From Rahnella woolbedingensis (lineage in GTDB: Bacteria > Pseudomonadota > Gammaproteobacteria > Enterobacterales > Enterobacteriaceae): a stretch of DNA of 64,000 nucleotides. The notes below the pieces were generated by a model. It searched no databases. It had not been told where the DNA came from and was given only the letters and a program-made list of their open reading frames with translations. Positions 31,205 to 47,225 of the stretch are shown piece by piece; the first letter of the stretch is position 1, and each line of letters opens with the position of its first letter. The position numbers and the translations under genes were made by a program. The DNA lies in assembly GCF_003602095.1 (NCBI RefSeq), contig NZ_RAHH01000015.1:1-64000 (forward strand). The letters are read 5' to 3'.

Positions 31205-31261
31205 GGTTCGGCTGCCGCTTGTCAGGGTTCATTTTCCACATCTGTTTCTGTATCCATAGAA

Positions 31262-31281
31262 TACTGGGTATGCATACAGTA
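31262..31281 (-). promoter_or_regulatory. LexA box (SOS operator) of umuC
   Basis: TACTGGGTATGCATACAGTA matches the LexA consensus TACTG-(TA)5-CAGTA with the invariant CTG-N10-CAG intact. It is 58 nt upstream of umuC, at the expected promoter position. Confidence 0.93.
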
Positions 31282-31362
31282 TAATCATAAGTAGGAGAAA
31301 TAGAAAATTCTTAAGGCAGCGCCACGGAACGCCCTGATCCTGTGGCGGTATTAGAAGCCTCG

Positions 31363-32301
31363 TTAGCCCTGTTGCCGCTTCGCAGACGAAAATGCAGTCA
31401 TGGAGACTCCGGCAAAGACCAGTGCCAGACCGGCGAGAAACAGGCCGGATAAGGACGTGCCCAGCAACACAATGGATGCCAGCGCACCGATAAGCGGCAC
31501 GCCGAGAGTGAAGTTGGACATGGCGAAAACGCTTATCCGGCGGCCATATTCGGAAGAAATCACGAAGCAAACTGAGGTGGCGATGGGGCCAATGAAAAAG
31601 AGTAACCCGAAGAGTCCCTTGCTGAGATGAATGGCCTGCGGGGAACCGTCAATGAGGCGCGCAATAAAAATCAGGGGCAGCGTGGCGATCAGCATTTGCC
31701 ACGGTGCCAGAGACAAAGGCGTCGCCGTCCATTTATGGTGTCTGACATGCACAATCACCAGCGACCAGGAGATGGCGCCCGTGATCAGAAAAGCGCACCC
31801 CATCACCACGCCGGGTTTTGACCAGTCCATTTCCAGCGGTGAACAAATCAAACCGATGCCTGCCAGACCAATAACCAGCGCGCAGATTTGTATGGCCGAG
31901 GGAGTATGGCGCAGCAGCAGCCACGAGGAGACGATGCCCCACAAAGGCGTCGTATAAGCCAGTAAAACCGCATGACTGGTATCGGTATATTGCATGGCAA
32001 TCATGCCCAGACCGGTGAACACCACCATCTGTAACACCCCGATGCTCAGCACAATGGGCAGGTCACTTTTTGCGGGCAAACGCAGCTGTTTTTTGAAGGC
32101 AACGAAGATAAACAGACAAACGCCGGCGCTGCCGAACCGGATAGCCCCGAGCCACAAGGGCGGCACGTCATTGAGTGCCAGTTTCGTTGCAGGCCAGCTC
32201 AACCCCCACAACACCACCATCACCAGAAGCCAGCACACAGTTCCCTTCATTGATGAGGGGCTGGAGTTTACGTTGATTACCGAACTGTTTTCCTGGTGCA
32301 T
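31363..32301 (-). CDS. EamA/DMT-family transporter
   Basis: A 312-residue inner-membrane protein with ten predicted transmembrane helices in two EamA repeats (about residues 20-155 and 165-305). Landmarks are VVLWGLSWPATKLAL in repeat one and SLVIVHVRHHKWTATPLSLAPWQ in repeat two. Proteins of this type mostly export amino acids or metabolites. ATG 32301 is preferred over a GTG three codons upstream. It is divergent from an Lrp/AsnC-type regulator, an arrangement common for amino-acid exporters, so amino-acid efflux under that regulator is the best guess. Confidence 0.88.
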   Translation of the reverse strand: MHQENSSVINVNSSPSSMKGTVCWLLVMVVLWGLSWPATKLALNDVPPLWLGAIRFGSAGVCLFIFVAFKKQLRLPAKSDLPIVLSIGVLQMVVFTGLGMIAMQYTDTSHAVLLAYTTPLWGIVSSWLLLRHTPSAIQICALVIGLAGIGLICSPLEMDWSKPGVVMGCAFLITGAISWSLVIVHVRHHKWTATPLSLAPWQMLIATLPLIFIARLIDGSPQAIHLSKGLFGLLFFIGPIATSVCFVISSEYGRRISVFAMSNFTLGVPLIGALASIVLLGTSLSGLFLAGLALVFAGVSMTAFSSAKRQQG

Positions 32302-32430
32302 ACAGAACACTCTCTATTTTTATCAGAGGGATATTCTATTTTGCTGATGGTGGAAAAACTGTTCTTATTGCCCGCCATAATCACTATTATGGGTAACTCT
32401 GTTCTGTAAAAATGTTTATGGAGAATAATT

Positions 32431-32919
32431 TTGCCTGACAATGCCATTGAGCTGGATGAAACCAGCCTGCATATATTGGATCTGCTGCAGACAAATGCCG
32501 ATATCAGCAATGCAGAATTAGCCGAACGTATCGGTTTGTCTGCGTCTCCCTGCTGGCGAAGAGTCACGGAGATGAAAGAAAAAGGCGTACTGCGTGGCTC
32601 AGTCATGCTGGTTGATCCGCTCAGTCTCGGGCTGGCGGTGAATGTTTTTGTGCATGTGTCCCTGAAGCAGCAGGACAAAGACTCGCTGAATCACTTTACC
32701 GATGCGATAAGCGACCGTCCGGAGGTGATGGAATGTTATCTGATGACCGGAGAATCAGACTTTTTGCTGCGGATCGTGGTGGAAAATCTGCAAAAGTATC
32801 AGTTGCTGATCACCGAGTGCCTCACTCAGATTGAAGGTGTCGCCAGCATTCGCTCGAGTTTTGCCCTCAGTCAGGTGAAATACACCACCGCCTTGCCGAC
32901 AAGACATTTAAGAAAGTGA
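32431..32919 (+). CDS. Lrp/AsnC-family transcriptional regulator
   Basis: A 162-residue regulator: N-terminal HTH (about residues 8-60; LDLLQTNADISNAELAERIGLSASPCWRRVTEMKEKGVL) and C-terminal RAM ligand domain (about 70-150; TGESDFLLRIVVENLQKY). It begins with TTG at 32431 after GGAGAA; no in-frame ATG exists near the start, and the length fits the family. It is divergent from the DMT transporter gene with a 129-bp spacer and probably regulates it in response to an amino acid. Confidence 0.88.
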   Translation: MPDNAIELDETSLHILDLLQTNADISNAELAERIGLSASPCWRRVTEMKEKGVLRGSVMLVDPLSLGLAVNVFVHVSLKQQDKDSLNHFTDAISDRPEVMECYLMTGESDFLLRIVVENLQKYQLLITECLTQIEGVASIRSSFALSQVKYTTALPTRHLRK

Positions 32920-32973
32920 GCAGCTAAGAAGAGGATAAGAAGAAGAGAAATGCTTTCGCACTTATCCCAACCC

Positions 32974-33010
32974 CACAAGGTTATCCACATATTCTGGGGA
33001 TAACCTTGTG
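32974..33010. terminator. Hairpin between convergent lrp-like and cupin genes
   Basis: A perfect 13-bp inverted repeat (CACAAGGTTATCC / GGATAACCTTGTG) with an 11-nt loop lies between convergent genes. There is no strong T tract. The left arm and loop also contain TTATCCACA, a DnaA-box word, which I take as chance. Confidence 0.6.
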
Positions 33011-33041
33011 CAAAGTTGCCCTGAAGGTAGCTGAAACGAGG

Positions 33042-34208
33042 TCAGATGGCGTGCGCGATTTTATCACCCGCTCTTCGCGCGGTGGATGGCAGAAGGCTGG
33101 CAGTGGCGATATAGCCGTCGGGATCGACACAACGATCTTCCTCAGATGCCCGCGCCATGATGTCTGCATCCCAGTAGAGACGTTTGCGATGATCCCCGCG
33201 GGTGGTCAGCGTGGCTTCCATTTCGCCGTCGATGGCGCGATAACGACGCCAGCTGTTAGCCGGTACCGACACCACTGAACCCTCTGCGGCGACGATGGTT
33301 ACTTCTTCGCCATCACGGTTATAGGTCACTTCCAGCGCCCCCTTAAATACCATCAGCACCTGCACATCCGGGCAGAGGTGCCGCCCGACGCAATGCTGGT
33401 TCGAAATTCGCAGCCACTCAACGGAAAATCCGTGCGGATTGAGGATTGGCGGGGCAGAGCGGCGGTCTTGTGAAATACCATAACCAATCACCGGTGCCAG
33501 TTCTCCTCCGTGGCCGGGCAAAACAGAATCCAGCAGAGCGTGTTTTGACCAGGCGCGCTGTTCGCCGGTGACGGCGCGGCGGCTCATCTCCCCGACGGAA
33601 TAATCACGCAGTGCGGCGATATGCTCCGCCGCCAGTGGCGGTAACAGGTCAGCTTTAGCCGGTGGCGGGCTGCCGGCTTCGACTTCAATCAGCATATTAT
33701 CGCGGCTCAGGTACAGGCCGTGTTCGCTGGCAGCATCCAGAATCGACGGATGCCAGATTATCCCGCCGGTGTTGTCACCGCCGAGGACGGTAAATACCAG
33801 TCCGTTAGTTTCCTGCGGGCTGACGTTGGTAAAGCCGCGGAAAATCCAGGTCGGGATCGACAAAATGGCCGGTGCGCTGAACTCAGCTTCATGTTCGCCG
33901 TGCGCGCCCCAGCGGAAACGCCAGCTGCCTTCGTGGATCAGAAACACTTCGGCGGTGAAATGCAGGTGCAGATTGTTGGTCACGCCTTTTGGCATCGCCG
34001 CCGCACCAATGTTGAAACCATGGGCTTCGGGGATATTCACGACCTGAGAGGCGGACTGGGTCACGCCGGGGCCGACAAAGGAAAAATTTTGCTTCAGATT
34101 TGAGCCGGGCAGTTTGCAGTCAATAAACGCCACGCTACAGGAAACCCTGTCTTCGGGACGAACCAGACGGCGCTGTGCTTCTTCTTGTGTCAGGGTGATA
34201 TGTTGCAT
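33042..34208 (-). CDS. Bicupin protein of the LacI/HisD-like catabolic cluster
   Basis: A 388-residue protein with two cupin domains. The first (about residues 65-165) keeps the full metal motif G75-x5-H81-x-H83-x3-E87-x6-G94. The second (about 270-350) is degenerate, reading RHLCPDVQVLMVFKG with one clear histidine. One metal site therefore seems likely. Bicupins of this size include gentisate-type ring-cleaving dioxygenases and several isomerases and lyases; no narrower call is safe. GGAGATAAG precedes the ATG. It is the last gene of the left arm, 47 nt after the aldolase gene across a 12-bp tandem repeat. Confidence 0.75.
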   Translation of the reverse strand: MQHITLTQEEAQRRLVRPEDRVSCSVAFIDCKLPGSNLKQNFSFVGPGVTQSASQVVNIPEAHGFNIGAAAMPKGVTNNLHLHFTAEVFLIHEGSWRFRWGAHGEHEAEFSAPAILSIPTWIFRGFTNVSPQETNGLVFTVLGGDNTGGIIWHPSILDAASEHGLYLSRDNMLIEVEAGSPPPAKADLLPPLAAEHIAALRDYSVGEMSRRAVTGEQRAWSKHALLDSVLPGHGGELAPVIGYGISQDRRSAPPILNPHGFSVEWLRISNQHCVGRHLCPDVQVLMVFKGALEVTYNRDGEEVTIVAAEGSVVSVPANSWRRYRAIDGEMEATLTTRGDHRKRLYWDADIMARASEEDRCVDPDGYIATASLLPSTARRAGDKIAHAI

Positions 34209-34221
34209 GTCTTATCTCCTT

Positions 34222-34257
34222 AATAGCCTGATAAATAGCCTGATAAATAGCCGGATT
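34222..34257. repeat. Three 12-bp tandem repeats between aldolase and cupin genes
   Basis: Two exact copies of AATAGCCTGATA (34222-34233, 34234-34245) and one variant AATAGCCGGATT (34246-34257) run in tandem. The last overlaps the aldolase stop codon. Copy-number change would alter spacing to the cupin ribosome binding site without touching either coding frame's core. Confidence 0.85.
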
Positions 34258-35047
34258 AATAACCAGAAGTGCCGCGAACCGGCGCTGTTTTACCCTGTGC
34301 GGCCGCAATGGCTTCCCGTGCAGCACGACCCAGCTGCATCACGTCATTAGCGGGGGTCACGAAATGGAAGCCTTGCGCCAGACGGCTGGCGGCGGCTTCT
34401 CCCGAGGTGCAGAAGATCCCGGCGAGTTTTTGATGAGCGTGACAGCGGGTGAGAACGCGTTCGATGGCGTCAAGCATCTCAGGATTCTGGGATTCCGCGC
34501 TGGCCTGTCCGGTGAGCGTTAAAGAGAGATCGTTCGGGCCGATGAAAACGCCATCCAGCCCGTCGGTGTCGAGAATGGCATCCAGATGTTCCAGCCCTTC
34601 ACGCGTCTCAATCATCGCCAGCGTCAGGATCTCTTCATTGGCGTATTGCGGATAATCCTTCCCGCCATAAAGCAGCGCACGCGCAGGGCCGAAAGAACGG
34701 TTACCGAGTGGGGGATAACGGCAGGCCGCGACAAATTGTTTCGCCTGTTCAGGAGTGGAAATCATCGGGCAGATAATGCCCCAGGCACCGGCATCCAGCA
34801 GCCGCATAATCTGCGCCGGTTCGTTGCTGCCTACCCGTGCCAGCGGTGTGGCGGGCGTGGCAGAAATGGCCTGCAACATAGACAGTGCGCTGGCGAAGTC
34901 GATCATGCCGTGCTGTAAATCCACGGTGACACAATCGTAGCCCTGATGTCCGGCTATCTCCGCGCTGTAACCGGAGGGAATGGCCAGCCAGCCGTTGATG
35001 ATCGGCTGCTGCTGGCGGAACGCCGCTTTAAGCGGATTTTTTCTCAT
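34256..35047 (-). CDS. HpcH/HpaI-family aldolase
   Basis: A 263-residue class II (metal-dependent) aldolase of the HpaI/YfaU/GarL fold, expected to split a 2-keto-4-hydroxy acid into pyruvate plus an aldehyde. Active-site residues fit the family: H46 (VDLQHGMID), R71 (LARVGSN), metal ligands E147 (MIETREG) and D173 (IGPNDLS). The ATG follows AGGAG at 7 nt, located inside the preceding hydrolase gene; the genes overlap by 20 nt. In context it should carry out a late carbon-carbon cleavage in the cluster's pathway. Confidence 0.9.
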   Translation of the reverse strand: MRKNPLKAAFRQQQPIINGWLAIPSGYSAEIAGHQGYDCVTVDLQHGMIDFASALSMLQAISATPATPLARVGSNEPAQIMRLLDAGAWGIICPMISTPEQAKQFVAACRYPPLGNRSFGPARALLYGGKDYPQYANEEILTLAMIETREGLEHLDAILDTDGLDGVFIGPNDLSLTLTGQASAESQNPEMLDAIERVLTRCHAHQKLAGIFCTSGEAAASRLAQGFHFVTPANDVMQLGRAAREAIAAAQGKTAPVRGTSGY

Positions 35048-35786
35048 GATAAGACTCCTGTATCCAGTGACGAAGAGCGGTGGCGACCGCCTGCGGAGAT
35101 TCTAAGGGCAGAAAATGCCCGCTGTCGGCAAGGGTTAGCCAGCGGGCGCGGGGAGCGGCGCAAGTCACCGCCTGATGATGTTCAGCGGTACAAATCACAT
35201 CGTGAGCGCCGCTCAGCACCAGCACCGGCGCGGTAAACGCCGAAAGTGCTGCACGGTGATCGGCGCGGGTAATGGCAATCTCTGTCTGACGGGCGAAGGT
35301 CTCAGTGCCACATTCCTGCGCCATCTGCACAATGGTGTGATGCAGCACCGCATCATCCAGCCGGTCGGGGGCGACGTAACGCGACCAGAGCGTGGTGCTC
35401 AGCCAGGGTCCGACACCCTGACGCGCGGCATCCTGCACGGCGGCGCGTCGGCTGGCGGCATTGGCGGGCGCATCGCTCAGCGGATTCACCGATAACAGCG
35501 CCAGTCCGGCGAGACGCTCCGGTGCCTGCGCCATCATCTCAAGGGCCACGATGGCACCGAGGGAAAATCCCGCAAGATAAAAGCGCGGCGGCAACACCGT
35601 CAGAAGCTGTTGCGAAAGCGCCGCCGCCGAATCCGCAGCGCAGACCGTGACCGTCTGCACGCTGCTGACATTGAGAAGCCCGATCACCGGTTGCCAGAGG
35701 CGGGCGTTGCATAACGTTCCGCCCAGCAATACCAGCGGAACGTCTTGGTTATCCAGCAAAGGGAAAGGGCTGATGAGTGAGGTCAT
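35028..35786 (-). CDS. Alpha/beta hydrolase of the catabolic cluster
   Basis: A 252-residue hydrolase with nucleophile elbow GFSLGA, acid region LVLSGAHDVICTAEHH and base in DSGHFLPLE. It belongs to the broad MhpC/3-oxoadipate-enol-lactonase-like group, so ester, lactone or C-C bond hydrolysis are all possible. The ATG at 35786 overlaps the SDR stop codon by 4 nt (ATGA), pointing to translational coupling; an ATG four codons upstream is the alternative. It is the fourth gene of the left arm. Confidence 0.85.
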   Translation of the reverse strand: MTSLISPFPLLDNQDVPLVLLGGTLCNARLWQPVIGLLNVSSVQTVTVCAADSAAALSQQLLTVLPPRFYLAGFSLGAIVALEMMAQAPERLAGLALLSVNPLSDAPANAASRRAAVQDAARQGVGPWLSTTLWSRYVAPDRLDDAVLHHTIVQMAQECGTETFARQTEIAITRADHRAALSAFTAPVLVLSGAHDVICTAEHHQAVTCAAPRARWLTLADSGHFLPLESPQAVATALRHWIQESYHEKKSA

Positions 35787-36550
35787 GTGGCTGTCCATCC
35801 CCCGTCTACCATCAGCGACGCGCCGGTGATCAGCGCAGACGCTGATGACGCCAGAAACACCACCGGCCCCATCACATCTTCCAGCGTGCCGAGACGTTTG
35901 AGCTTGATGTTATCCAGCACATAACGACTGAACGCGGGCGAGGCGAGATTTTCGCGCGAGAGCTCGGTCTCTATAAAAGTGGGGCAGAGCGTGTTGACGC
36001 GGATACCCGCCTCGCCGAGCTCCAGCGCCATGGTTTTGGTTAAGCCTTCCAGCGCGAATTTAGAGGCACAGTACACGCTGCGATCCGGGCCACCGACATG
36101 CCCCATCTGCGAGGAGATATGAATGACTGAACCGGCAATCTGCCGTTGTTTCATCCGGCGGGTGACCTGCTGGCTGAGGAAGAACGTTGCCCGCAGGTTA
36201 AGCGCCATCACTGCATCGTAGTTTTCCTCGCTGACCTCAAGAAATGGCTGATGGCGCGCCAGTCCGGCGCTGTTGACCAGAATGTCGAAATCAGGAAGTC
36301 CGGCCAGGGTGTCCGCAACCTGCGCGGTGTCGGTGATATCCAGCGCCACCGTGTGCAGTATCAGCCCGTCAGTGGCGGCCAGCTCAGCGGCTTCCCGCAG
36401 CTGCGCAGCCTGGCGTGCGACTAACCACACCTGCGCACCTGCGCGGGCGAGCGCCACTGCCGCAGCAAAACCGATACCACGGGAACCCCCTGTCACCAGT
36501 GCGCGGCGGTTTTCGAGACGAAAATCCGGCGAACGGGGAAGTGCGGTCAT
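35783..36550 (-). CDS. Short-chain dehydrogenase/reductase of the catabolic cluster
   Basis: A 255-residue classical SDR. The cofactor motif TGGSRGIG is at 20-27, NSAG at 93-96, and the catalytic S147, Y160, K164 triad is intact (SVYCASK). The residue pattern after strand 2 (LVARQ) suggests NADP(H). The start is ATG 36550, which shares one base with the stop of the HisD-like gene (TGATG); a longer frame reaching 36685 runs through that gene and is rejected. It likely oxidises or reduces a hydroxyl/keto group of the cluster's substrate. SDRs also accompany HisD-like HpsN in sulfopropanediol catabolism. Confidence 0.9.
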   Translation of the reverse strand: MTALPRSPDFRLENRRALVTGGSRGIGFAAAVALARAGAQVWLVARQAAQLREAAELAATDGLILHTVALDITDTAQVADTLAGLPDFDILVNSAGLARHQPFLEVSEENYDAVMALNLRATFFLSQQVTRRMKQRQIAGSVIHISSQMGHVGGPDRSVYCASKFALEGLTKTMALELGEAGIRVNTLCPTFIETELSRENLASPAFSRYVLDNIKLKRLGTLEDVMGPVVFLASSASALITGASLMVDGGWTAT

Positions 36551-37881
36551 CACGACGCTTTCCCCAGATCTTGCGCAGGGACGGAACCGGCGTAAGGCAC
36601 TTCCTGATTTCCGTAACGGCGTACACGAATGTTGGCCTGTTCCGCGTGGCCGGAAAAACCTTCTAACTGGCAAAGACGCGAGCAATAACTGCCGATTTCC
36701 GTTGAGGCTTCATCGCTCACGACTTTCTGCCAGGTGCAGGTTTTCATGAATTTACCGACCCACAGACCGCCGGTATAACGCGCGGCTTTCTGCGTGGGTA
36801 GCGTGTGGTTAGTGCCGATCACCTTGTCGCCGTAAGCGACGTTGGTGCGCGGGCCGAGGAACAGCGCGCCGTAGTTGGTCATATTGGCGAGGAACCAATC
36901 GTCGCGATCGGTCATCACCTGAACGTGTTCGGAGGCAATGCGATCTGCTTCCTGAAGCATTTCCTCGTAACTGTCGCAGACGATCACTTCGCCGTAATCG
37001 CGCCACGACTGACGCGCGATATCCGCCGTCGGCAGTTGCGTCAGCAGACGTTCCACTTCGCGCAGTGTCTCGCGGGCGAGTTTCAGGGAATTGGTCAGCA
37101 AAATGGCCGGTGTGGTCACGCCGTGTTCGGCCTGACCGAGCAGATCGGTGGCACACATTTCGGCATCAACGGTTTCATCGGCAATCACCAGCGTTTCGGT
37201 CGGGCCTGCGAACAGGTCGATCCCCACGCGGCCAAACAGCTGGCGCTTGGCTTCGGCAACAAAAGCGTTACCCGGCCCGACCAGCATATCGACGGGTTGC
37301 AGGGTTTGTGTCCCGAGCGCCATCGCGCCAATCGCCTGGATCCCGCCTAATGCGTAGATTTCCGTGGCGCCTGCCATGGCCTGCGCGGCCACAATGGCAG
37401 GCGCGGGCTGACCGTTGAACGGCGGGGCGCAGCTGATAATGCGTGAGCAACCCGCCACATTGGCGGTGATAATGGACATATGCGCCGAGGCGAGCAGCGG
37501 ATATTTGCCGCCCGGCACATAACAGCCGACGGCATTAATCGGAATATTTTTGTGGCCGAGAATAACGCCAGGCCGTGTTTCCACTTCCAGATCTAACAAA
37601 CAGGCACGTTGCTGTGTGGCGAAATTAAATACCTGCTGTTGTGCAAACTCGATGTCTTTAATATTTTGCCGAGTCAGCTGTTTTAAACAGGCATTAATTT
37701 CATTTTGTGACAGGCGATAATCTTTACGGTCATAATGATCAAACTTAAAAGATAATTCCCGCACTGCCTGATCCCCGCGCTGTTCAATATCCGCCAGAAT
37801 ATTTTCGACAGTAATACTGATTTCTTTACTGGCTTGCTGACGTTCAGATAATGATTTGCTGGTTTTTAAATACTGAGTCAT
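36550..37881 (-). CDS. Histidinol-dehydrogenase-like enzyme 1 (HpsN-type branch)
   Basis: A 443-residue HisD-family dehydrogenase. Zinc ligands Q250, H253, D352 and H412 and the catalytic pair E318-H319 are all present, so it should oxidise a primary alcohol twice, to the carboxylate, with NAD. The segment [15 protein letters not shown] replaces the substrate-end sequence of true HisD and is, from memory, shared with sulfopropanediol dehydrogenase HpsN and related catabolic enzymes. No his genes lie nearby. It is the second gene of the left arm, 88 nt after the MFS gene, and is coupled to the SDR. A paralogue lies in the right arm. Confidence 0.88.
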
Positions 37882-37969
37882 GAGTTCTCCTTGCCTGTTT
37901 CAGACGTGGCGACACCGCCAGAATAAACAGGTGAAATAAATCGTTGGGAAATTAAATAACGCCGGATGT

Positions 37970-39220
37970 TTACGCTTTTTTCACGTAATCCTGTGCCGGT
38001 GTCAGATGTACGTGCTCATTCTGTACTGCCGGTTTCTTTACCTGCCGCTGATATACGCTGCGTGCCGCCATCGGCGTGAGCAGGGCAGCCACCACGGACA
38101 GGGCACCAATCAGGTAATAGCCGGAAGATAAATTAATATGTTGCAGCATCAGCCCCATTAATACCGGGCCGACAAACATTCCGCAGGAGTAGATGGTCTG
38201 AAACAGCCCCATGCGCGTGGACTGCTCATCCTCAACCGTATTCACCACGCTCAGCGACATAAATACGGCGAACGCCATACCGAATGAGAACCCGGCAATC
38301 GCCTGCAAGAAGTAGATCACATAAAGATTGGCGGTGAAAGGGATGCCGATACTGGAAATTACCTGCAAAACGATACCTATCAGCGCGGTATTCACCAGGC
38401 CCAGCCGTTTGTAAAACACCGAGCTGCACAGCGCAATAGCCAATGCGTAGAACACCAGATGGATGTTGCTGAGCAGGGTCAGGATCCCGGCTTTAGCGCC
38501 GAGCTGCTGCGCGTAAATCGGCGTCAGCGTATCGCGGGTGGCGAAAGGCACCAGGATCACAATGGTCGCCAGCAGGCCGATTAGCCACACCGAGGGATCA
38601 GCCATCTGGCGTTTCGCGCTGGTCATACAGGCTTTCAGCGTCGGCGCGCTTGCCGCATCGTGAAACTCTTTGATGCGGGTGGTGAGGATCAGCGCCAGCA
38701 GCGCCGCCGCGCTCGAAACAAAGTAACCAATGCTTTTATCGATAAAGTGGATCAGCGCACCACCGATACAGTTGCCCAGAAACACGCCCAGCGGCCCGGC
38801 GAGGGCCAGCAGCGCCACGGCGGCGGGGGCATCTTTTCGGTCGAAATAGCGAATAAACAGAATGTTGTACAGCACCCAGGTGGCGGCGGTGAACCCGTCA
38901 GCCGCTTTGGCCAGATACAGCGTCACGGCGTTCGGTTCCAGATAGGCAATAGGCCAGGTGACCAGCGGCAGCAACAGACTGAACTGGATAAAAATCTTCC
39001 GGCTTTTCACCACATCCGACAGGATGCCAATGGGAAAACGCACGAACAGCGTCGCCAGACCACTGGCGCCCATGATGATCCCCACTATCTCAGGCTGCAT
39101 GCCTTCGCTGATCAACATCGGTGCCAGAAAAGCATCGATACTGTGGATACAGATAAAAAATAACACACTGATAGCAAAAAAAAGTCTGACTTCAGAACGA
39201 CTAAAGAGTGCACGAAACAT
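37970..39220 (-). CDS. MFS transporter of the catabolic cluster
   Basis: A 416-residue transporter with about 12 transmembrane helices in two halves split by a loop near residue 190-210 (TRIKEFHDAASAPTLKACM). The start MFRALFSRSEVRLFF at 39220 has AGAGG upstream; the frame extends to 39334 but through unlikely sequence. It heads the left arm and faces lacI across a 380-bp spacer containing two palindromes. By position it is the uptake (or less likely efflux) system for the compound degraded by the cluster. Confidence 0.87.
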   Translation of the reverse strand: MFRALFSRSEVRLFFAISVLFFICIHSIDAFLAPMLISEGMQPEIVGIIMGASGLATLFVRFPIGILSDVVKSRKIFIQFSLLLPLVTWPIAYLEPNAVTLYLAKAADGFTAATWVLYNILFIRYFDRKDAPAAVALLALAGPLGVFLGNCIGGALIHFIDKSIGYFVSSAAALLALILTTRIKEFHDAASAPTLKACMTSAKRQMADPSVWLIGLLATIVILVPFATRDTLTPIYAQQLGAKAGILTLLSNIHLVFYALAIALCSSVFYKRLGLVNTALIGIVLQVISSIGIPFTANLYVIYFLQAIAGFSFGMAFAVFMSLSVVNTVEDEQSTRMGLFQTIYSCGMFVGPVLMGLMLQHINLSSGYYLIGALSVVAALLTPMAARSVYQRQVKKPAVQNEHVHLTPAQDYVKKA

Positions 39221-39338
39221 GGTGGTAAACCTCTTAAAATTAATGGGTTGTGACCAATCAAGTACGGCATTAACCGGCTCATTCCTTTGGTTGCTGCTCC
39301 CTGTCCCCGGTAAAAATTGACGGCGTGTTTGCATTGCA

Positions 39339-39352
39339 TGAATACGTATTCA
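39339..39352. promoter_or_regulatory. LacI-type operator, left copy
   Basis: TGAATACGTATTCA is a perfect 14-bp palindrome centred on CG, as LacI-family sites are. It lies about 120 bp upstream of the MFS gene. With flanks it aligns to the second site as NTGNATACGNATNCAA. Confidence 0.75.
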
Positions 39353-39426
39353 AAAACTGAAGTTACGAAAAGGTTTCAATTTTGTAAAGGTTAAGATTGT
39401 AAATGTGAAAAAAATATTTTTGGTTG

Positions 39427-39442
39427 TTGCATACGCATGCAA
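39427..39442. promoter_or_regulatory. LacI-type operator, right copy
   Basis: TTGCATACGCATGCAA is a 16-bp palindrome apart from the two bases flanking the central CG. It is centred 89 bp from the left copy, so one tetramer or two dimers could loop the divergent promoter region. Confidence 0.75.
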
Positions 39443-39600
39443 AGATGGTGTAAGTATAAAAAACAGACATTCCTGCAAAGGGGTAAACCGCCAGACTGGC
39501 GTTCTCTGCACGGTACGTTAGACTGATGCAACACTTTGTTTGTAAAAGATGTTTGTAGAAATTAATGCGATAACGGGAATGTTGATAAGGAACAGCGGCA

Positions 39601-40671
39601 ATGAAACGTAAGACTTTTGGGCCCGTGACATCACAACATGTCGCGCAGCTCGCCGGAGTATCACAGTCAGCGGTATCGAGAACCTTCACGCCGGGGGCCA
39701 GTATTTCCCCGGCCACCCGTGAAAAGGTGCTGAAAGCAGCACGCGAGATTGGCTACCGGCCTAATGCCATCGCCCGTTCACTGAACACCGCCCGCTCACG
39801 CATTGTGGGGGTGGTGATGTCCTATTTTGATAATCAGTTTTATCCGCAGGTGCTGGAAGCGCTGGCGCAACAGCTCGATGAGCTGAATTACCACCTGCTG
39901 CTGTTTGTCGGCGATCGTGACGGCAATGTGGACCGGATTTTCGACCAGATCATGCAGTACCGGGTCGATGGCATCGTGCTGGCTTCCGTGTCGCTTTCGC
40001 TCGAGCTTTCCGAAGAGTGTCTGGCGGCGGGGATCCCGGTGGTGCTGTTTAACCGCAGCGAAGAGACCGGCATCGCGTCGAGCGTCAATACCGATAACGT
40101 CGCCGCTTCGCGCCAGATTGCAGAATTTCTGCTTGCCGGTGAGCATAAGCGCTTTGCGTATATGGCCGGGGTTGCCGATTCCTCGGTGAATCTGGCGCGC
40201 CAGCAGGGGTTTGTCAGCGCGCTTGAGGCGAAAGGTGTTCAGGATATTCGGGTGGTGCAGGGCGATTATGACGCGCAGAAAACCGCGCGTGCGGCGCAGG
40301 AACTCTTCTCGTCCTCCGCACCGCCTGATGCGATTTTTGCCGCCAACGATCATATGGCGCTGACGGTGATGGATGTCGCCCGCTATGAGTTTGGGCTGCG
40401 GATTCCTGAGGATGTGTCGGTGATTGGCTATGACGACACCGGTGCGTCGGGCTGGCCTTCTTATGCGCTGACATCCGCCTCACAGCCGGTGACGGCGATG
40501 GTGACGGCCACGGTGGCGCTGCTGATGAAACAGATTGAAAGCGAAAATATCGAGCCGGAGCAGGTGGTGGTCACCGGTGCGCTGATCGTCCGCCATTCCG
40601 CGCGGCGTCCGCATTTCGGCGTAGTCGAAAAAGAGGGATTGTCATTGTTCCAGCCACAGGAGGTTGAATGA
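39601..40671 (+). CDS. LacI-family transcriptional regulator of the catabolic cluster
   Basis: A 356-residue regulator. The N-terminal HTH is shifted by about ten residues (TSQHVAQLAGVSQSAVSRTF, residues 9-28). The hinge helix region is RPNAIARSLNTARS, and a periplasmic-binding-protein-like sugar/ligand domain follows (about 65-335). AAGGAACAG precedes the ATG. It is first in the right arm and overlaps the next gene by 4 nt, so it is co-transcribed with the enzymes it likely controls. Two related palindromes in the 380-bp divergent spacer are its probable operators. Confidence 0.92.
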   Translation: MKRKTFGPVTSQHVAQLAGVSQSAVSRTFTPGASISPATREKVLKAAREIGYRPNAIARSLNTARSRIVGVVMSYFDNQFYPQVLEALAQQLDELNYHLLLFVGDRDGNVDRIFDQIMQYRVDGIVLASVSLSLELSEECLAAGIPVVLFNRSEETGIASSVNTDNVAASRQIAEFLLAGEHKRFAYMAGVADSSVNLARQQGFVSALEAKGVQDIRVVQGDYDAQKTARAAQELFSSSAPPDAIFAANDHMALTVMDVARYEFGLRIPEDVSVIGYDDTGASGWPSYALTSASQPVTAMVTATVALLMKQIESENIEPEQVVVTGALIVRHSARRPHFGVVEKEGLSLFQPQEVE

Positions 40672-41639
40672 GCAGGTTGCCGGGGTTTAGCCCACAGTTT
40701 GATTCGATACAGCAATTTATCCTCACGCTGACCCATGTCGTCTGGGAGCAGAAGGATATCGGCCAGCTGGCTGATTTTTATGCCAATCCGGTGGTGTTCC
40801 ATACCCCCGAGAAGCAGCTGAACGATCTCTCTCAGTTTATGCGCCTGACGCTGGAAGCGATGCACAGCTTTCCGCAGCGTACGGTTCTGACCGAAGACAT
40901 TTTGTGTTCTCACATACCGCAAGACGAGTACTACGCCGCCCAGCGTACGCTGGCCTGTATTCAGCATCAGGGCGAAGGCTTTTTCGGGCATCCGAGCGGT
41001 AAATCCGTGTGGGTGCGGACGTGGGCCGACCGCGTTTGTGCCGATGGCGCGGTGCGTCAGGAGTGGTTATTGCAAGATCGCGCGGCCATTGTTTCGCAGA
41101 TTGGCCTGGATGTGCGTGACTTCGCCCAACAGCTGGCGCGGGTGCGTCAGGAAGCCGGACTTGAGAACGTGTCGCCGGAAGAAATGGATGCCCGCTGGGC
41201 AGGCGGTCCGGAAGGAGATGACGTCGAAGGTCCGCTGGCCGGGCTGGTGGAACGCTATCTGTCGATGTGGGCGGGCGGCAACAGCGGCGTGGTGCCGGGG
41301 TTATATCATCCGGCTGCCACCCTGCACGGGCCGGGGCATGTGCTGCGCACGGGTGAACAGGATATCGGCGGCTATTTATCCGGTTACCGGGCGTCATTTG
41401 CCGATTGCGAAACGCAGCTGCATCATCTGATTGTGCGCCGTGATGCGAACGAGCCGATCCGTCTGTCCCTGCGCTGGTCGATGCTCACCTGGCATGACGG
41501 CTACGGAAAATTTGGTACGCCGACGCGCCGGCCGGTCGCCATCACCGGTATCAGTCAGCTGGAATTGCGCGACGGTCTGATTATCCGCGAATATCTTGGG
41601 GTAGATGAATTAGCCATCTGGTCACAGATTTTTAATTAG
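40668..41639 (+). CDS. SnoaL/NTF2-like protein 1
   Basis: A 323-residue protein made of two SnoaL-like (NTF2-fold) halves, about residues 12-150 and 185-320. Each has the pattern of an aromatic-rich helix, a conserved HGP/HTP histidine (FHTPEKQ; LHGPGHV) and a late Arg-W segment (RTWADRV; LRWSMLTWHDG). SnoaL-fold proteins include polyketide cyclases, isomerases, dehydratases and hydrolases. The ATG overlaps the lacI stop (ATGA), with GGAGG upstream. It is a paralogue of the next gene, sharing HGYGKFGTPT/HGLGKPT-like C-terminal features. The reaction is unknown. Confidence 0.75.
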   Translation: MSRLPGFSPQFDSIQQFILTLTHVVWEQKDIGQLADFYANPVVFHTPEKQLNDLSQFMRLTLEAMHSFPQRTVLTEDILCSHIPQDEYYAAQRTLACIQHQGEGFFGHPSGKSVWVRTWADRVCADGAVRQEWLLQDRAAIVSQIGLDVRDFAQQLARVRQEAGLENVSPEEMDARWAGGPEGDDVEGPLAGLVERYLSMWAGGNSGVVPGLYHPAATLHGPGHVLRTGEQDIGGYLSGYRASFADCETQLHHLIVRRDANEPIRLSLRWSMLTWHDGYGKFGTPTRRPVAITGISQLELRDGLIIREYLGVDELAIWSQIFN

Positions 41640-41655
41640 TAGATCTTTACTTAAT

Positions 41656-41673
41656 AGGGGGGAACTCCCCCCT
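41656..41673 (+). terminator. GC hairpin between the two SnoaL-like genes
   Basis: The arms AGGGGGG and CCCCCCT surround the loop AACT, 17 nt after SnoaL-like gene 1. No T run follows, so it is more likely an mRNA-stabilising or attenuating hairpin than a full terminator. The rest of the 195-bp gap may hold a promoter for the downstream pair. Confidence 0.55.
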
Positions 41674-41834
41674 GAAAAATCATCTTCTGATAAAACGATA
41701 TTAATTTATCGGGGGGTGACTGTTGTCAGAATAACGTAAACGCATTATCGCCATTTTCAGGCGAGGGAGTTCTTCATCCCTAAATAACAGTGCCGGGTAT
41801 TACCACGGCGCATCAATACAACGCAGGAGGTTAT

Positions 41835-42974
41835 ATGTCTTCAACCGAAGCCACAAATAAAACACCGGTAGTTGCTGAGAAAACAAATACTAAATCCGCT
41901 CGCGAAGAGTCTGTATTACAGGTTGAGCGTCGCGACTTCGTTGATTTAGTCCCGGAGAAAAGACCGCGCGCGCAATCATTAAGAGGTTTTGATGACTGTT
42001 ATACCGATATTGTCGATTACATCGTGCGATGCACCCATAAAATATGGGATGAACGTGATGTCGGATTAATTTACACCCACTATACCCACAACTGCGTGTT
42101 ATATAACGCGCTCGGCACCATGTATAACCGTGAGCAGGTGGTACATGACACCCTGCAACGTCTGGTGGCATTCCCGGAACGTCGCGGTATGGCCACGCAG
42201 GTTATCTGGAACGGGAACGACGTCGATGGTTTCTATACCTCGCATCTGGTGACCGGCACTGGCCGCCACACGCAACACAGCCATCTAGGCAAACCGACGC
42301 AGCGTACTTTTGTTACCCGCACCGTTGCCGACTGCATGATCCACGAGAATAAAATTTATCGTGAGTGGGTGGTCAGCGACAACATGTCAGTGATGAAGCA
42401 GCTCGGCCTGAATACCGATGTCATTGCCTACGATATGGCGAAAGAGCAGTTTGATAAAGGTTTCCGCGTGACCGATATCGGCGAGAACCGCCGCATGGTC
42501 GGGCAGTATCCGCCTGAAATGGAGTGCGATGTTTCCATCGCGCACACCGATACCGAAGAACAGTGCCTGCGCTGGCTGCATGAAATCTATAACCGCCGCA
42601 TGCTGGGCAAAATCAAAGATGTCTATGCGCCCAACGTGCAGTGGCACGGTCCGTTGCTGAAAGAGCTGTACGGTCAGGCGGCGGTTATCCACCAGACGCT
42701 CGCACTGATTGGCATGATCCCGGACGGTGCGTGGATGCCGCAGCACATCTGTTCCAACCCCTGTGACGAAGGCGGTACCAAAGTGGCGGTGCGCTGGATT
42801 ATGGAAGGGCATCACCTCGGTTATGGCGAGCTGGGCAAACCGACCGGCGAGCGTCTGTTCGTGATGGGGATGTCTCATTACCACATTGTAAAAGGCAAAA
42901 TCATTGATGAATGGGTGGTGTACGACCATCTGGCACTGCTGGCGCAAATCAAACTGGGACAAATGGAGGAGTAA
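41835..42974 (+). CDS. SnoaL/NTF2-like protein 2
   Basis: A 379-residue two-domain SnoaL-like protein, with halves at about 50-200 and 225-375. Matching elements are VRCTHKIWDERDVGLIYTHY and LGKPTQRTFVTRTVADCM in the first half, and WLHEIYNRRMLGKIKDVYAP, VQWHGPL and LGKPTGERLFVMGMSHYH in the second. The duplicated HLGKPT/ELGKPTGER pattern shows that the halves are internal repeats. The start MSSTEA at 41835 has CAGGAGG upstream; the frame extends 15 codons further without a ribosome binding site. It ends 3 nt before the second HisD-like gene, so the two are coupled. Confidence 0.78.
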   Translation: MSSTEATNKTPVVAEKTNTKSAREESVLQVERRDFVDLVPEKRPRAQSLRGFDDCYTDIVDYIVRCTHKIWDERDVGLIYTHYTHNCVLYNALGTMYNREQVVHDTLQRLVAFPERRGMATQVIWNGNDVDGFYTSHLVTGTGRHTQHSHLGKPTQRTFVTRTVADCMIHENKIYREWVVSDNMSVMKQLGLNTDVIAYDMAKEQFDKGFRVTDIGENRRMVGQYPPEMECDVSIAHTDTEEQCLRWLHEIYNRRMLGKIKDVYAPNVQWHGPLLKELYGQAAVIHQTLALIGMIPDGAWMPQHICSNPCDEGGTKVAVRWIMEGHHLGYGELGKPTGERLFVMGMSHYHIVKGKIIDEWVVYDHLALLAQIKLGQMEE

Positions 42975-42977
42975 GTC

Positions 42978-44288
42978 ATGGGTAAGATTAATGCGGATGA
43001 TGTGCAGTTTCTTAAACGCCCGCAGGGGCAGGATGCGCAGGCTGACCGGTCACTGACGGAAACCGTTCATCAGATTATTGAACAAGTGCGCACACGCGGT
43101 GACGCGGCTCTGCGCGAGTATTCTGCGAAATTCGACCAGACGACGCCGGATCAGTTTGAAGTATCGGAAGCGGAAATTAGCCGGACGCTGGCCGATCTGG
43201 ATCCGCAAACCCGCAAGGACAGTGAGTTTGCCATTGCGCAGGTGAAGCGTTTTGCCCAGGCGCAGCTGGCGACCATGAAACCACTGGAAGTGGAAACGCT
43301 GCCGGGTGTGCATCTGGGTCACCGCATTATTCCTATCCAGACCGTGGGATGTTATGTCCCCGGCGGGCGATACCCGATCCTGTCGGCGCCGGTGATGTCT
43401 ATCGTACCGGCAGTGGTGGCGGGCTGTGATGAAATCATTGCCTGTCTGCCTCCGGGTGCTCATCCGGCGATGATCGCGATTTGTCATCTGGCGGGCGCGC
43501 ACCGCATCTTCAAAGTGGGTGGCGCGCAGGCGATTGCAGCAATGGCGTGGGGCACGGAGTCTGTTCCGGTGGTGGATAAAGTCGTCGGGCCGGGCAATGC
43601 TTTTGTGAATGAAGCGAAAAGGCAGGTATTCGGGAAAGTGGGCATCGACGCGCTGGCGGGCCCAAGTGAGATCTACGTCATCACCGATGACAGCGCCGAC
43701 CCGCGTATGCTGGCTGCCGATCTGCTCGCGCAGGCCGAGCATGACGTGCACACCCGCGTCGGCATGGCGACCACCAGTCAGCGCATCGCCAGTGAAACGC
43801 TGGCTGAAATAGCCCGGCAGCTGGAGACGCTGCCTACCGCAGCGACGGCAGGCGAAGCGTGGAAGCGGCAGGGCGAAATTGTGGTGTGTCAGGATGAAGA
43901 ACAGCTGATTGCCTGGGCCGACCACATGGCGACGGAGCATTTGCAGGTACATACCCGCGATCCTCATGCCACCGCCAGCAAAATCCGCAATTACGGTTCA
44001 CTGTTTATCGGGCAAAACGCCAGCGTGGTGTTCTCGGACAAATGTTGCGGCACCAACCACACGCTGCCGACGATGGCCGCAGCGCGATATACCGGCGGTC
44101 TGTGGGTGGGGGCGTATGTGAAAATCTGTACGCACCAGTGGATCGACGACCACGGCATTGCCTCTGTCGCTGAACCCGCCGTTCGTCAGAGCCGCACCGA
44201 AGGCATGCAGGCACACCGCCGCGCCGCTGAAATCCGCCTGCGCCCGAAGGATATCGATCTCATCACCGGCGGCAAATGCGACCAGTAA
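42978..44288 (+). CDS. Histidinol-dehydrogenase-like enzyme 2
   Basis: A 436-residue HisD-family dehydrogenase paralogous to the left-arm enzyme. Zinc ligands Q252, H255, D354 and H413 and the catalytic E320-H321 are intact. It shares [11 protein letters not shown] with paralogue 1 but differs around it (AYVKICTHQ against KFMKTCTWQ), suggesting a different substrate or stereoisomer. GGAGGAG lies 6 nt before the ATG, inside the end of SnoaL-like gene 2. With no histidine genes around, a catabolic alcohol oxidation is the better reading than histidine synthesis. Confidence 0.88.
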   Translation: MGKINADDVQFLKRPQGQDAQADRSLTETVHQIIEQVRTRGDAALREYSAKFDQTTPDQFEVSEAEISRTLADLDPQTRKDSEFAIAQVKRFAQAQLATMKPLEVETLPGVHLGHRIIPIQTVGCYVPGGRYPILSAPVMSIVPAVVAGCDEIIACLPPGAHPAMIAICHLAGAHRIFKVGGAQAIAAMAWGTESVPVVDKVVGPGNAFVNEAKRQVFGKVGIDALAGPSEIYVITDDSADPRMLAADLLAQAEHDVHTRVGMATTSQRIASETLAEIARQLETLPTAATAGEAWKRQGEIVVCQDEEQLIAWADHMATEHLQVHTRDPHATASKIRNYGSLFIGQNASVVFSDKCCGTNHTLPTMAAARYTGGLWVGAYVKICTHQWIDDHGIASVAEPAVRQSRTEGMQAHRRAAEIRLRPKDIDLITGGKCDQ

Positions 44289-44460
44289 CCGCGTTGGTCT
44301 GACAACACAACACCGTTAAGTCAGCGGAAGTACTGGCTTAACGGTGAGTTTACGAACCTGCTGCTTATGATCCCTGCACTGTCAGGGGTTTCGGCCTCTC
44401 ACGTGTGTGGCCGGTCGGGGAGGGTTCCGCAGGAATGGAAAAATGTTTTTAAAATACCAC

Positions 44461-44475
44461 TAGACGACTGGTCTA
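44461..44475. promoter_or_regulatory. NemR-like operator copy 1
   Basis: TAGACGACTGGTCTA has TAGAC/GTCTA arms. It is the distal of two sites upstream of the DJ-1/PfpI gene. Confidence 0.8.
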
Positions 44476-44579
44476 ATTGTTGTTAGCTTAGCGACAAGGT
44501 GACGGCAGACGGGCGATATCACACTCTTTCCGTTCTGGCCGGATCCAAAGGCTGTTCGACTATTTTTTTACTCGCTAAC

Positions 44580-44594
44580 TAGACGACCGGTCTA
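44580..44594. promoter_or_regulatory. NemR-like operator copy 2
   Basis: TAGACGACCGGTCTA differs by one base from copies 1 and 3. It lies 35 nt before the DJ-1/PfpI start codon, where bound repressor would block the promoter. Confidence 0.85.
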
Positions 44595-44628
44595 ATTTAA
44601 TAATAATTCTACCCACTGGAGATTAACG

Positions 44629-45309
44629 ATGAAGATTCTTATGGTTCTCACCTCGCACGACAAACTGGGCAACACAGGCCGTAAAACGGGTTTCTGGCTG
44701 GAAGAACTGGCCGCGCCTTACTACGCATTTAAAGACGCGGGGGCAGAAATTACCCTCGCTTCTCCAAACGGTGGCAATCCGCCGCTGGATCCAAAAAGCA
44801 ATGAACCGGATTTCCAGACTGAACAGACGCACCGCTTCGAAGCGGATGCTCAGGCAAGCGCCCAGCTCGCCTCAACGGTCCGCCTCGACAGCGTTTCACA
44901 AGCTGATTTCGATGCTGTTTTCTATCCCGGCGGCCACGGTCCGTTGTGGGATCTGGCAGAAGATAAAAATTCCATCGCACTGATTGAAGCATTTCTGGCA
45001 GCAAGCAAGCCTGTGGCACTGGTGTGTCATGCACCGGGCGTACTGCGCCATGTGAAAACGCCTGAAGGAAAACCACTGGTTGAAGGTAAAAAAGTGACCG
45101 GCTTTACCAACACAGAAGAGGAAGCGGTAGGTCTGACCGATGTGGTGCCGTTCCTGGTGGAAGAAGAGCTGATCGCCAAAGGTGGCATTTATTCAAAAGG
45201 ACCGGACTGGGGTTCTTATGTGGTTGCCGACGGTTTGCTGATCACCGGTCAAAACCCGGGTTCTTCTGCTGAAGCGGCAGAACTGCTGATAAAGCAGCTG
45301 GGGGCTTAA
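44629..45309 (+). CDS. DJ-1/PfpI-family protein (Hsp31/glyoxalase III-like)
   Basis: A 226-residue class I glutamine-amidotransferase-fold protein. The nucleophile is C133 followed by H134 in LVCHAPGVL. GGHG (residues 101-104) forms the oxyanion region, and the conserved acidic residue is in FWLEELAAPYY (E25/E26). Proteins of this branch act as glutathione-independent glyoxalases or protein deglycases. Two NemR-like operators precede it and a NemR-like gene follows. This supports a role against methylglyoxal or other reactive electrophiles. The gene is monocistronic by spacing. Confidence 0.88.
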   Translation: MKILMVLTSHDKLGNTGRKTGFWLEELAAPYYAFKDAGAEITLASPNGGNPPLDPKSNEPDFQTEQTHRFEADAQASAQLASTVRLDSVSQADFDAVFYPGGHGPLWDLAEDKNSIALIEAFLAASKPVALVCHAPGVLRHVKTPEGKPLVEGKKVTGFTNTEEEAVGLTDVVPFLVEEELIAKGGIYSKGPDWGSYVVADGLLITGQNPGSSAEAAELLIKQLGA

Positions 45310-45431
45310 CGGCGATTCAGGCGGGGTGACTGGCTTGACTGTCGCCCCGCTGAGCAGACAGCGAAGTGTTGTTATTGCGGGATGATCGAGTGTATCGTCG
45401 CGAGTGAAGAAGTCGCCGTTTCATTCGCTCA

Positions 45432-45446
45432 TAGACGACTGGTCTA
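45432..45446. promoter_or_regulatory. NemR-like operator copy 3
   Basis: TAGACGACTGGTCTA, identical to copy 1, lies 21 nt before the TetR-family gene and predicts autoregulation. Confidence 0.83.
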
Positions 45447-45467
45447 GCTTTTTGGTAAATTTACCCT

Positions 45468-47164: not shown

Positions 47165-47225
47165 TTCCTATTCTCAATACGAGAAATAGATAAAGCTTAT
47201 TATTCATAATAAAAAGCAGGTTTCC

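Follow-up and report, generated by a model that had tools for sequence, protein, structure and literature searches.

A ten-gene cluster with two HisD-like dehydrogenases and double-domain SnoaL proteins in Rahnella woolbedingensis, a probable LacI-controlled catabolic unit

Introduction

HpsN is a dehydrogenase of the HisD family in which His126, within the motif GRY(A/S)H, binds the sulfonate, while GSAPL is the mark of HisD itself (excerpts of PMC11382572). Excerpts of a study on HpsN in marine bacteria (PMC11131964) show no cupin or aldolase there. LdpA and PcfL are formaldehyde lyases of the NTF2 family that act in sphingomonads (excerpts of PMC12997858). Here we describe a locus that combines members of these families in another gene set. 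The window analyzed, a 64,000-nucleotide stretch of the 5.46-Mb genome of Rahnella woolbedingensis, contains at positions 33042-44288 a ten-gene cluster in two divergent arms. The left arm encodes a major facilitator superfamily (MFS) transporter, a HisD-like dehydrogenase (HisD1), a short-chain dehydrogenase/reductase (SDR), an alpha/beta hydrolase, an HpaI-family aldolase and a bicupin; the right arm encodes a LacI-family regulator, two SnoaL-like proteins (SnoaL1 and SnoaL2) and a second HisD-like dehydrogenase (HisD2). The ten genes probably form one LacI-controlled catabolic unit. Judged by its sequence, the cluster looks built for the import of an alcohol-rich natural compound and its breakdown to pyruvate.

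A model that read only the DNA letters (the sequence-only reading) had known of no described pathway with this gene set. Open-access literature searches for HisD together with SnoaL, cupin, ester cyclase, amidase or RraA turned up no such set among the matches listed, in keeping with that reading.

Results

Conservation of the gene set

A scan with one genome per species returned 253 relatives of SnoaL2. The loci around the best 80 of the 253 were analyzed, so that distant variants are under-sampled. Genes were labeled by their best BLAST match to 16 reference proteins. Open reading frames (ORFs) were begun at the first start codon, which makes some lengths overlong, and contig ends cut some loci (19 of 80 are under 20 kb), lowering all counts. 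SnoaL2 was labeled at 79 of the 80 loci, the HisD family at 70 (112 members), LacI at 67, the SDR at 56, the cupin at 53, SnoaL1 at 33 and two subtypes of amidase at 16 and 25. HpaI (25 loci) alternated with an RraA-like protein (23 loci), never with both at one locus, and RraA stood in for HpaI in alphaproteobacteria. The full core, consisting of both HisDs, SDR, cupin, SnoaL2, LacI and an aldolase, was present at 36 of the 80 loci and at 32 of the 61 loci of at least 20 kb.

Gene order was kept in Pantoea dispersa, Buttiauxella, Enterobacter, Leclercia and Serratia, with P. dispersa carrying the identical ten genes in identical order plus an amidase after HisD2. Similar families in other orders, with sugar-type ATP-binding cassette (ABC) transporters or MFS proteins, were found on plasmids of Sinorhizobium medicae, Novosphingobium, Roseibium, Alloyangia, Martelella, Deinococcus and Priestia; some of these sets are incomplete, as in Priestia with its single HisD and in S. 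medicae, where no HisD2 was seen. The 253 SnoaL2 relatives and the spread of clusters across Pseudomonadota, Deinococcota and Bacillota make a common natural compound the probable substrate.

The two arms are linked by a gene fusion. Of 20 long SnoaL2 ORFs (from Devosia, Rhizobium and others), all but that of locus L078 matched the alpha/beta hydrolase in their N-terminal part, at 39-46% identity. A stand-alone hydrolase was seen at 31 loci and a long SnoaL2 ORF at 20, never together, with neither at 29 of the 80. That the hydrolase and SnoaL2 are fused elsewhere and lie in opposite arms here points to a single pathway served by both arms.

The ten-gene cluster is a unit of gain or loss. In the congener G255, the flanking sequences (window 30807-33015 and 44434-46127) lie ~1.0 kb apart, compared to 11.4 kb here. 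The nearest named relatives at the locus are Rahnella ecdela and R. bruchi (SnoaL2 98% identical), with DNA identity of 91-93% over the cluster and left flank and 88-89% over the right flank. Of 295 genomes sampled from the family, 14 matched SnoaL2 at E up to 1e-20, our genome included, 13 at 81% identity or more and one (G086) at 34%; the three other genomes of the genus in this sample, G255 among them, had no SnoaL2 match at that threshold. In E. coli, the SnoaL2-HisD2 DNA matched 426 of 5426 genomes, none over 80% of the query, and the ten matches listed extended over 5% of the query length and all lay in hisD.

Variant loci were also seen. In the stink-bug symbiont Pantoea sp. Eser (L084) the cluster looks decayed, with the bicupin in two ORFs, shortened lacI and SnoaL ORFs and no HisD found at the locus. 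Locus L056 encodes a SnoaL2 89-90% identical to that of the window, and left-arm genes other than MFS were not found at L056 and L060. Genome G258 carries a second, different locus (L036:1651-10449) with an aspartase/fumarase-type lyase, bicupin, hydrolase, HpaI, MFS, two SnoaL proteins and an N-terminal fragment of an asparaginase, without HisD; this variant may reflect nitrogen chemistry. In G086, a bacterial CdiA-CT RNase A domain protein (L037:13690-14568) is encoded near a HisD-less cluster variant.

A shared predicted operator

The divergent gap contains two conserved palindromes with a central CG, ATGAATACGTATTCAA (O1) and TTGCATACGCATGCAA (O2), 89 bp apart, which are predicted operators. 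These two copies of the predicted LacI-type operator TTGMATACGYATKCAA are the sole sites with at most one mismatch genome-wide. The O1-O2 spacing was 88-90 bp at 27 of the 28 enterobacterial loci having the gap; note that locus L048 was entered in this count as a single operator, and that a second L048 site lies 89 bp away. The core motif TGNATACGNATNCA occurred at 126 sites in 60 of the 80 related loci, compared to none for the reversed control, and 121 of the 126 sites fell between 450 bp upstream of a core gene start and 120 bp inside the gene. The core also recurred in clusters of Deinococcus and Priestia. In 16 carrier genomes, sites with at most one mismatch were found at 43 places in 14 genomes (control 0), 29 within the locus examined, 10 at most 7 kb away on the same contig and 4 elsewhere. 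One of these four distant sites, in Devosia riboflavina, is upstream of a second HisD1/LacI copy. The regulator itself contains both the LacI helix-turn-helix and the periplasmic-binding domain; 21 NCBIfam models match it, none over its cut-off.

The same motif marks an additional gene. An amidase-family hydrolase is part of the set at about half of the related loci, and in Devosia it forms one operon with the transporter. At two Devosia loci (L141, L142), operators stand ahead of the ABC-transporter/amidase operon and of HisD1, at L142 also by the cupin gene. Among 13 genomes without an amidase in the cluster locus, four carry an orthologue elsewhere (63-66% identity), in all four cases with the motif 15-104 bp upstream of the aligned start; the other nine had no orthologue at E up to 1e-60. 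One of the remote loci (L171) has an extra, looser match that is not upstream of the amidase. Since the amidase belongs to the set, the parent compound probably carries an amide. Our genome contains no orthologue of the cluster amidase (best match 37% identical). A distant match at window 61922-62578, 37% identical over residues 20-237 of the cluster amidase, is not an orthologue.

Taken together, this sequence pattern supports the view that the ten genes form one regulon with both arms under joint control. Two unrelated neighboring operons were rejected as an explanation in view of the shared operator, the hydrolase-SnoaL2 fusion and the co-occurrence in related loci. These observations also agree with the sequence-only reading, which had taken the arms to be co-regulated and the whole to be an undescribed catabolic cluster. 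The amidase of many relatives, the two operators and the cluster-free site lay outside what that reading could draw on.

Gene organization

The ten genes in two divergent arms were borne out, as all ten ORFs are open at the positions in Table 1. Pfam backs each of the family assignments proposed, that of the bicupin weakly. The close gene contacts noted before were likewise found: HpaI and the alpha/beta hydrolase overlap by 20 nt, SDR and HisD1 touch as TGATG, lacI and SnoaL1 overlap by 4 nt (ATGA), and SnoaL2 and HisD2 are separated by 3 nt. The hydrolase and SDR genes would overlap by 4 nt if the hydrolase uses its second ATG. The MFS gene most likely starts at 39220, as in the relative locus L041, rather than at 39334, and the divergent gap is therefore ~380 bp. 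For SnoaL2, the ATG at 41835 is the most likely start. Note that to the right of the cluster (window 46604-49802) apparent fimbrial subunit and usher genes follow, as judged by eye from the translations.

Table 1. Features of the ten-gene cluster (window positions).
Feature	Position	Strand	Basis
Bicupin protein, 388 aa	33042..34208	-	Pfam Cupin_2, predicted model
HpaI-family aldolase	34256..35047	-	Pfam HpcH_HpaI 4e-34
Alpha/beta hydrolase, likely start 35786	35028..35798	-	Pfam
SDR dehydrogenase, 255 aa from ATG at 36550	35783..36550	-	Pfam adh_short_C2 3e-58
HisD-like dehydrogenase 1, 443 aa, signature GKYPL ... GDKVIGTNH	36550..37881	-	Pfam, TIGR00069
MFS transporter, likely start 39220 (416 aa)	37970..39334	-	Pfam MFS_1, length in relatives
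Operator-like palindrome O1, ATGAATACGTATTCAA	39338..39353	unstranded	
Operator-like palindrome O2, TTGCATACGCATGCAA, 89 bp from O1	39427..39442	unstranded	
LacI-family regulator	39601..40671	+	Pfam LacI + Peripla_BP_3
SnoaL-like protein 1, two SnoaL-like domains	40668..41639	+	Pfam SnoaL (21-145), SnoaL_2 (194-307)
SnoaL-like protein 2, two SnoaL/NTF2-fold domains, likely start 41835	41790..42974	+	
HisD-like dehydrogenase 2, 436 aa, signature GRYPI ... SDKCCGTNH	42978..44288	+	Pfam, TIGR00069

The two HisD-like dehydrogenases

The closest solved relative of both dehydrogenases is CpHpsN (8v35), with 400.8 bits for HisD1 and 310.4 bits for HisD2; E. coli-type HisD (1k75) matched HisD2 with 280 bits. 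Each protein belongs to a subfamily with its own signature. Relatives of HisD1 contain GK(Y/F)P(L/M) in 53 of 54 cases and GDKVIGTNH in all 54, and relatives of HisD2 contain GR(Y/F)P(I/L) in 57 of 58 cases and SDKxxGTNH in all 58. The biosynthetic HisD of the same genome (contig C2) has GSAPL and GDYASGTNH, and both of these are missing from HisD1 and HisD2. The DK motif, equivalent to Lys353 of HpsN, is kept in 54/54 HisD1 and 58/58 HisD2 relatives. The EH motif was matched in 49/54 and 58/58 and the QAEH motif in 54/54 and 51/58, respectively, the remainder being unmatched by the search expression. These zinc and catalytic motifs predict four-electron oxidation of an alcohol to an acid, as in HpsN and biosynthetic HisD.

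In a tree of 37 rows, comprising HisDs from 15 of the 80 loci plus others, the HisD1 proteins of Pseudomonadota formed a clade (100/100) separate from that of the HisD2 proteins of Pseudomonadota (100/99). One Deinococcus type joined HisD1 (100/97) and Priestia joined HisD2 (98/91). HpsN and (R)-2,3-dihydroxypropane-1-sulfonate (DHPS) dehydrogenase paired apart from both (100/99). Long branches (Priestia, and the third and biosynthetic HisDs of our genome) are placed unsurely. By signature and tree, HisD1 and HisD2 are thus classified as neither HpsN nor biosynthetic HisD, and a reading as histidine-biosynthesis paralogues was rejected, though both pass the general hisD model.

Catabolism of a DHPS-type sulfonate by HpsN-like HisDs would be suggested by CpHpsN being the closest solved relative and by the retained Lys353 equivalent. 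However, GRY(A/S)H is in neither HisD, nor in any of the 53 typed HisD1 relatives (of 54) or the 57 typed HisD2 relatives (of 58), HpsN keeps to its own pair in the tree, and the annotations of the clusters viewed name no gene for sulfolactate or for sulfite release. This route is extremely unlikely, and the doubt about plain sulfopropanediol expressed in the sequence-only reading is strengthened by the missing His126 motif.

A third non-biosynthetic HisD-like gene of this genome (contig C12, L035:9867-11207) has a very long branch in the tree. Its neighbors are an ABC transporter, aminotransferase-like and alcohol-dehydrogenase-like genes and apparent hutU and hutH genes (N-termini judged by eye).

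SnoaL proteins, hydrolase, aldolase and SDR

Each half of SnoaL2 has the SnoaL/NTF2 fold (alpha+beta-barrel), and no polyketide synthase is encoded among the ten genes. For the alpha/beta hydrolase, PcaDC and PcaD models match far under their cut-offs. Could the SnoaL proteins act as formaldehyde lyases like LdpA/PcfL, in the degradation of lignin-like aromatic dimers? There is precedent for the NTF2 family in sphingomonads (excerpts of PMC12997858), and a Novosphingobium plasmid bears a version of the cluster. Nevertheless, we consider this very unlikely: the annotated clusters viewed list neither a stilbene dioxygenase nor a beta-etherase, several alphaproteobacteria have sugar-type transporters here, and the carriers include Enterobacter and Deinococcus.

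The aldolase falls within Pfam HpcH_HpaI but scores 190.5 bits with TIGR02311, below the cut-off of 368.8. Its closest solved relatives, 7o5i, 8adq and 6r62, are HpcH/HpaI or hydroxyketoacid aldolases. For the RraA of the Martelella cluster, no related solved structure was found at 1e-10, and the substrate-binding protein encoded there gave only weak matches to sugar-binding proteins, which do not name its ligand. The best NCBIfam models for the SDR are mixed (gluconate 5-dehydrogenase, FabG, glucose 1-dehydrogenase, KduD), and the best 25 of 233 model matches are all under cut-off.

These matches bear on a Dahms-like sugar-acid route, which we regard as possible but doubtful. In such a route the SDR would convert a sugar to a lactone, the hydrolase would open it, SnoaL2 would replace the dehydratase and yield a 2-keto-3-deoxy acid, HpaI or RraA would release pyruvate and an aldehyde, and the HisDs would oxidize a terminal alcohol or aldehyde. 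Gluconate, glucose and rhamnose dehydrogenases are among the best models of the SDR, three sugar-acid aldolase models are among those of HpaI, and several alphaproteobacteria have sugar-type ABC transporters. The hydrolase-SnoaL2 fusion is as expected of consecutive enzymes, and the sole sugar-acid-type dehydratase name in the annotated stretches viewed is an IlvD/Edd ~12 kb from the Novosphingobium ester cyclase. However, we know of no NTF2-fold sugar-acid dehydratase, the SDR list also includes FabG and other unrelated types, and the amidase, the bicupin and the two HisDs are left unexplained.

Bicupin, amidase and associated proteins

Pfam Cupin_2 matches the bicupin weakly (30.5 bits, residues 277-332), and the predicted structural model is clearly that of a bicupin. 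In the N-terminal cupin, H81 and H83 are nearly invariant and E87 is invariant. The last residue of a cupin metal site is usually His; here an invariant Arg (R124) takes this position. Quercetin dioxygenase, vicilins and oxalate decarboxylase tie as matches to the predicted fold, none being unique. The nearest models of the amidase, all under cut-off, are indoleacetamide hydrolase for Pantoea and Priestia, formamidase for the Deinococcus hydrolase and AtzE-family models for Roseibium. A MetE-like protein (PF01717; e.g., L121:3909-5147) is encoded at ten loci, in eight of them, mostly Devosia, between cupin and RraA; the other two (L081, L099) are without a labeled aldolase. It is possibly a demethylase or an alternative lyase.

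Mycosporines are ultraviolet-screening metabolites of fungi, lichens, algae and cyanobacteria, and their catabolism is the boldest of the readings considered. It would let the HisDs oxidize the ring C5-hydroxymethyl and the amino-alcohol side chain (glutaminol, serinol), the amidase remove a glutaminol or glutamine amide, the bicupin open the ring enolone oxidatively to 4-carboxy-4-hydroxy-2-oxoadipate, and RraA or HpaI split this to pyruvate and oxaloacetate. Two HisDs, the amidase, a pyruvate aldolase and the possible MetE-like demethylase of ten loci would thereby find use. The indoleacetamide hydrolase and formamidase models would fit the amide step, and quercetin dioxygenase among the tied predicted folds would fit ring opening. 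Mycosporine-glutaminol and its glucoside occur in terrestrial fungi and have the glutaminol side chain (excerpts of PMC4665425). We nonetheless regard this reading as improbable. It is a purely chemical argument that gives the SDR, hydrolase and SnoaL proteins no roles, the Roseibium amidase points to AtzE instead, RraA matched 4-carboxy-4-hydroxy-2-oxoadipate aldolase models very weakly (32 and 29.5 bits), and vicilins and oxalate decarboxylase fit the bicupin equally well. The open-access literature searches gave nothing relevant on mycosporine-degradation genes among the matches listed. If true, it would amount to a bacterial pathway of mycosporine breakdown, with two new HisD subfamilies and ring opening by a bicupin dioxygenase.

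Discussion

We infer the following order of reactions for a LacI-controlled catabolic unit. Without inducer, LacI would occupy both operators in the divergent gap and silence both arms; with inducer present, the MFS transporter would import the substrate. Where an amidase is present, amide hydrolysis would occur early, and R. woolbedingensis, having no amidase orthologue, would use the amide-free form. Each HisD would convert a primary alcohol beside a hydroxyl or amine to a carboxylate with two NAD+ (four electrons), and the SDR would oxidize a secondary alcohol. Successive reactions would fall to the alpha/beta hydrolase and the double-domain SnoaL2, one of them the hydrolysis of an ester, a lactone or an activated C-C bond and the other a lyase, dehydration or isomerization step. 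The bicupin would act on an enolizable intermediate, and HpaI would release pyruvate from a 4-hydroxy-2-oxo acid by retro-aldol cleavage. The sequence-only reading had likewise proposed oxidation, then opening or hydrolysis, then aldol cleavage. We infer a polyhydroxylated substrate, perhaps anionic at one stage, given that HisD1 and HisD2 have conserved the Lys with which HpsN contacts the sulfonate. Pantothenate was rejected, as its pathway needs no SnoaL, cupin or hydrolase, and so was pyridoxine, whose pathway does not fit the transporter and the aldolase.

Several observations weigh against the ten genes being one LacI-controlled catabolic unit. HisD1 (442.8 bits) and HisD2 (455.9 bits) both exceed the TIGR00069 hisD cut-off of 243.8 bits; this model is broad, and the divergent third HisD-like protein of our genome scores 435.9. 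At up to two mismatches, the operator search of our genome gave 6 + 4 sites compared to 5 + 7 for the reversed control. The core motif is missing from 20 of the 80 related loci, and 2 of the 16 carrier genomes have no site with at most one mismatch. Neither HpaI nor RraA was found at 32 of the 80 loci, partly because loci are cut. Functions also vary widely within the bicupin, SnoaL and SDR families. Finally, a second family of the same order uses this palindrome for another regulon: of the 398 genomes in the phylum sample, eight contained exact TTGMATACGTATKCAA, two from the window's family and six from the second family, whose LacI proteins, where found (L161, L162, L166), are only 25-27% identical. 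The palindrome alone was rejected as a pathway marker, since it also occurs at these unrelated loci. Up to three mismatches, the window holds 9 sites compared to 3.95 expected, and 5 of 100 shuffles reach 9. Looser matching thus drowns the signal, and the operator claim therefore rests on close matches and conservation.

At the loci of this second family (L161-L169), the palindrome lies near apparent TonB receptors and glycoside-hydrolase genes (N-termini judged by eye).

A LacI-controlled catabolic cluster is of a known kind; what is apparently new is the gene set, together with the HisD subtypes and the unit of SnoaL and hydrolase. The two HisD subfamilies are currently annotated 'histidinol dehydrogenase', and the locus places them in a coherent regulon that has a predicted switch sequence and in which a double SnoaL protein takes an apparent catabolic role. 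Given the operator, the link to the amidase and carriers known by name (Rahnella, Buttiauxella, Enterobacter, Devosia, Sinorhizobium), the substrate is within reach of a growth screen.

Compared to known systems, HpsN of Cupriavidus pinatubonensis shares with both cluster HisDs the family, the zinc and catalytic motifs and the Lys after the Asp ligand, but it has the His126 motif that both lack and falls in a separate clade. The biosynthetic HisD of the same genome shares family, active-site motifs and the TIGR00069 match, and differs in GSAPL/GDYASGTNH versus GKYPL/GDKVIGTNH (HisD1) and GRYPI/SDKCCGTNH (HisD2). SnoaL-type polyketide cyclases and ketosteroid isomerase have the NTF2 fold of each SnoaL2 half, whereas SnoaL2 is a tandem double-domain protein in an apparent catabolic regulon, fused to the hydrolase in some bacteria. 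LdpA and PcfL, likened to the SnoaL proteins by description and not by sequence, are NTF2-superfamily enzymes in catabolism as well, but their pathway concerns aromatic dimers, unlike the role proposed here. HpaI and hydroxyketoacid aldolases (7o5i, 6r62, 2v5j) are of the same family and match the cluster aldolase over nearly its full length; in contrast to HpaI, it is under the NCBIfam equivalog cut-off, and none of the ten genes is a homoprotocatechuate gene. Oxalate decarboxylase, quercetin dioxygenase YxaG and vicilins share the bicupin fold at 7-14% identity among the matches listed, and the cluster bicupin differs from them by the invariant Arg that replaces the last His.

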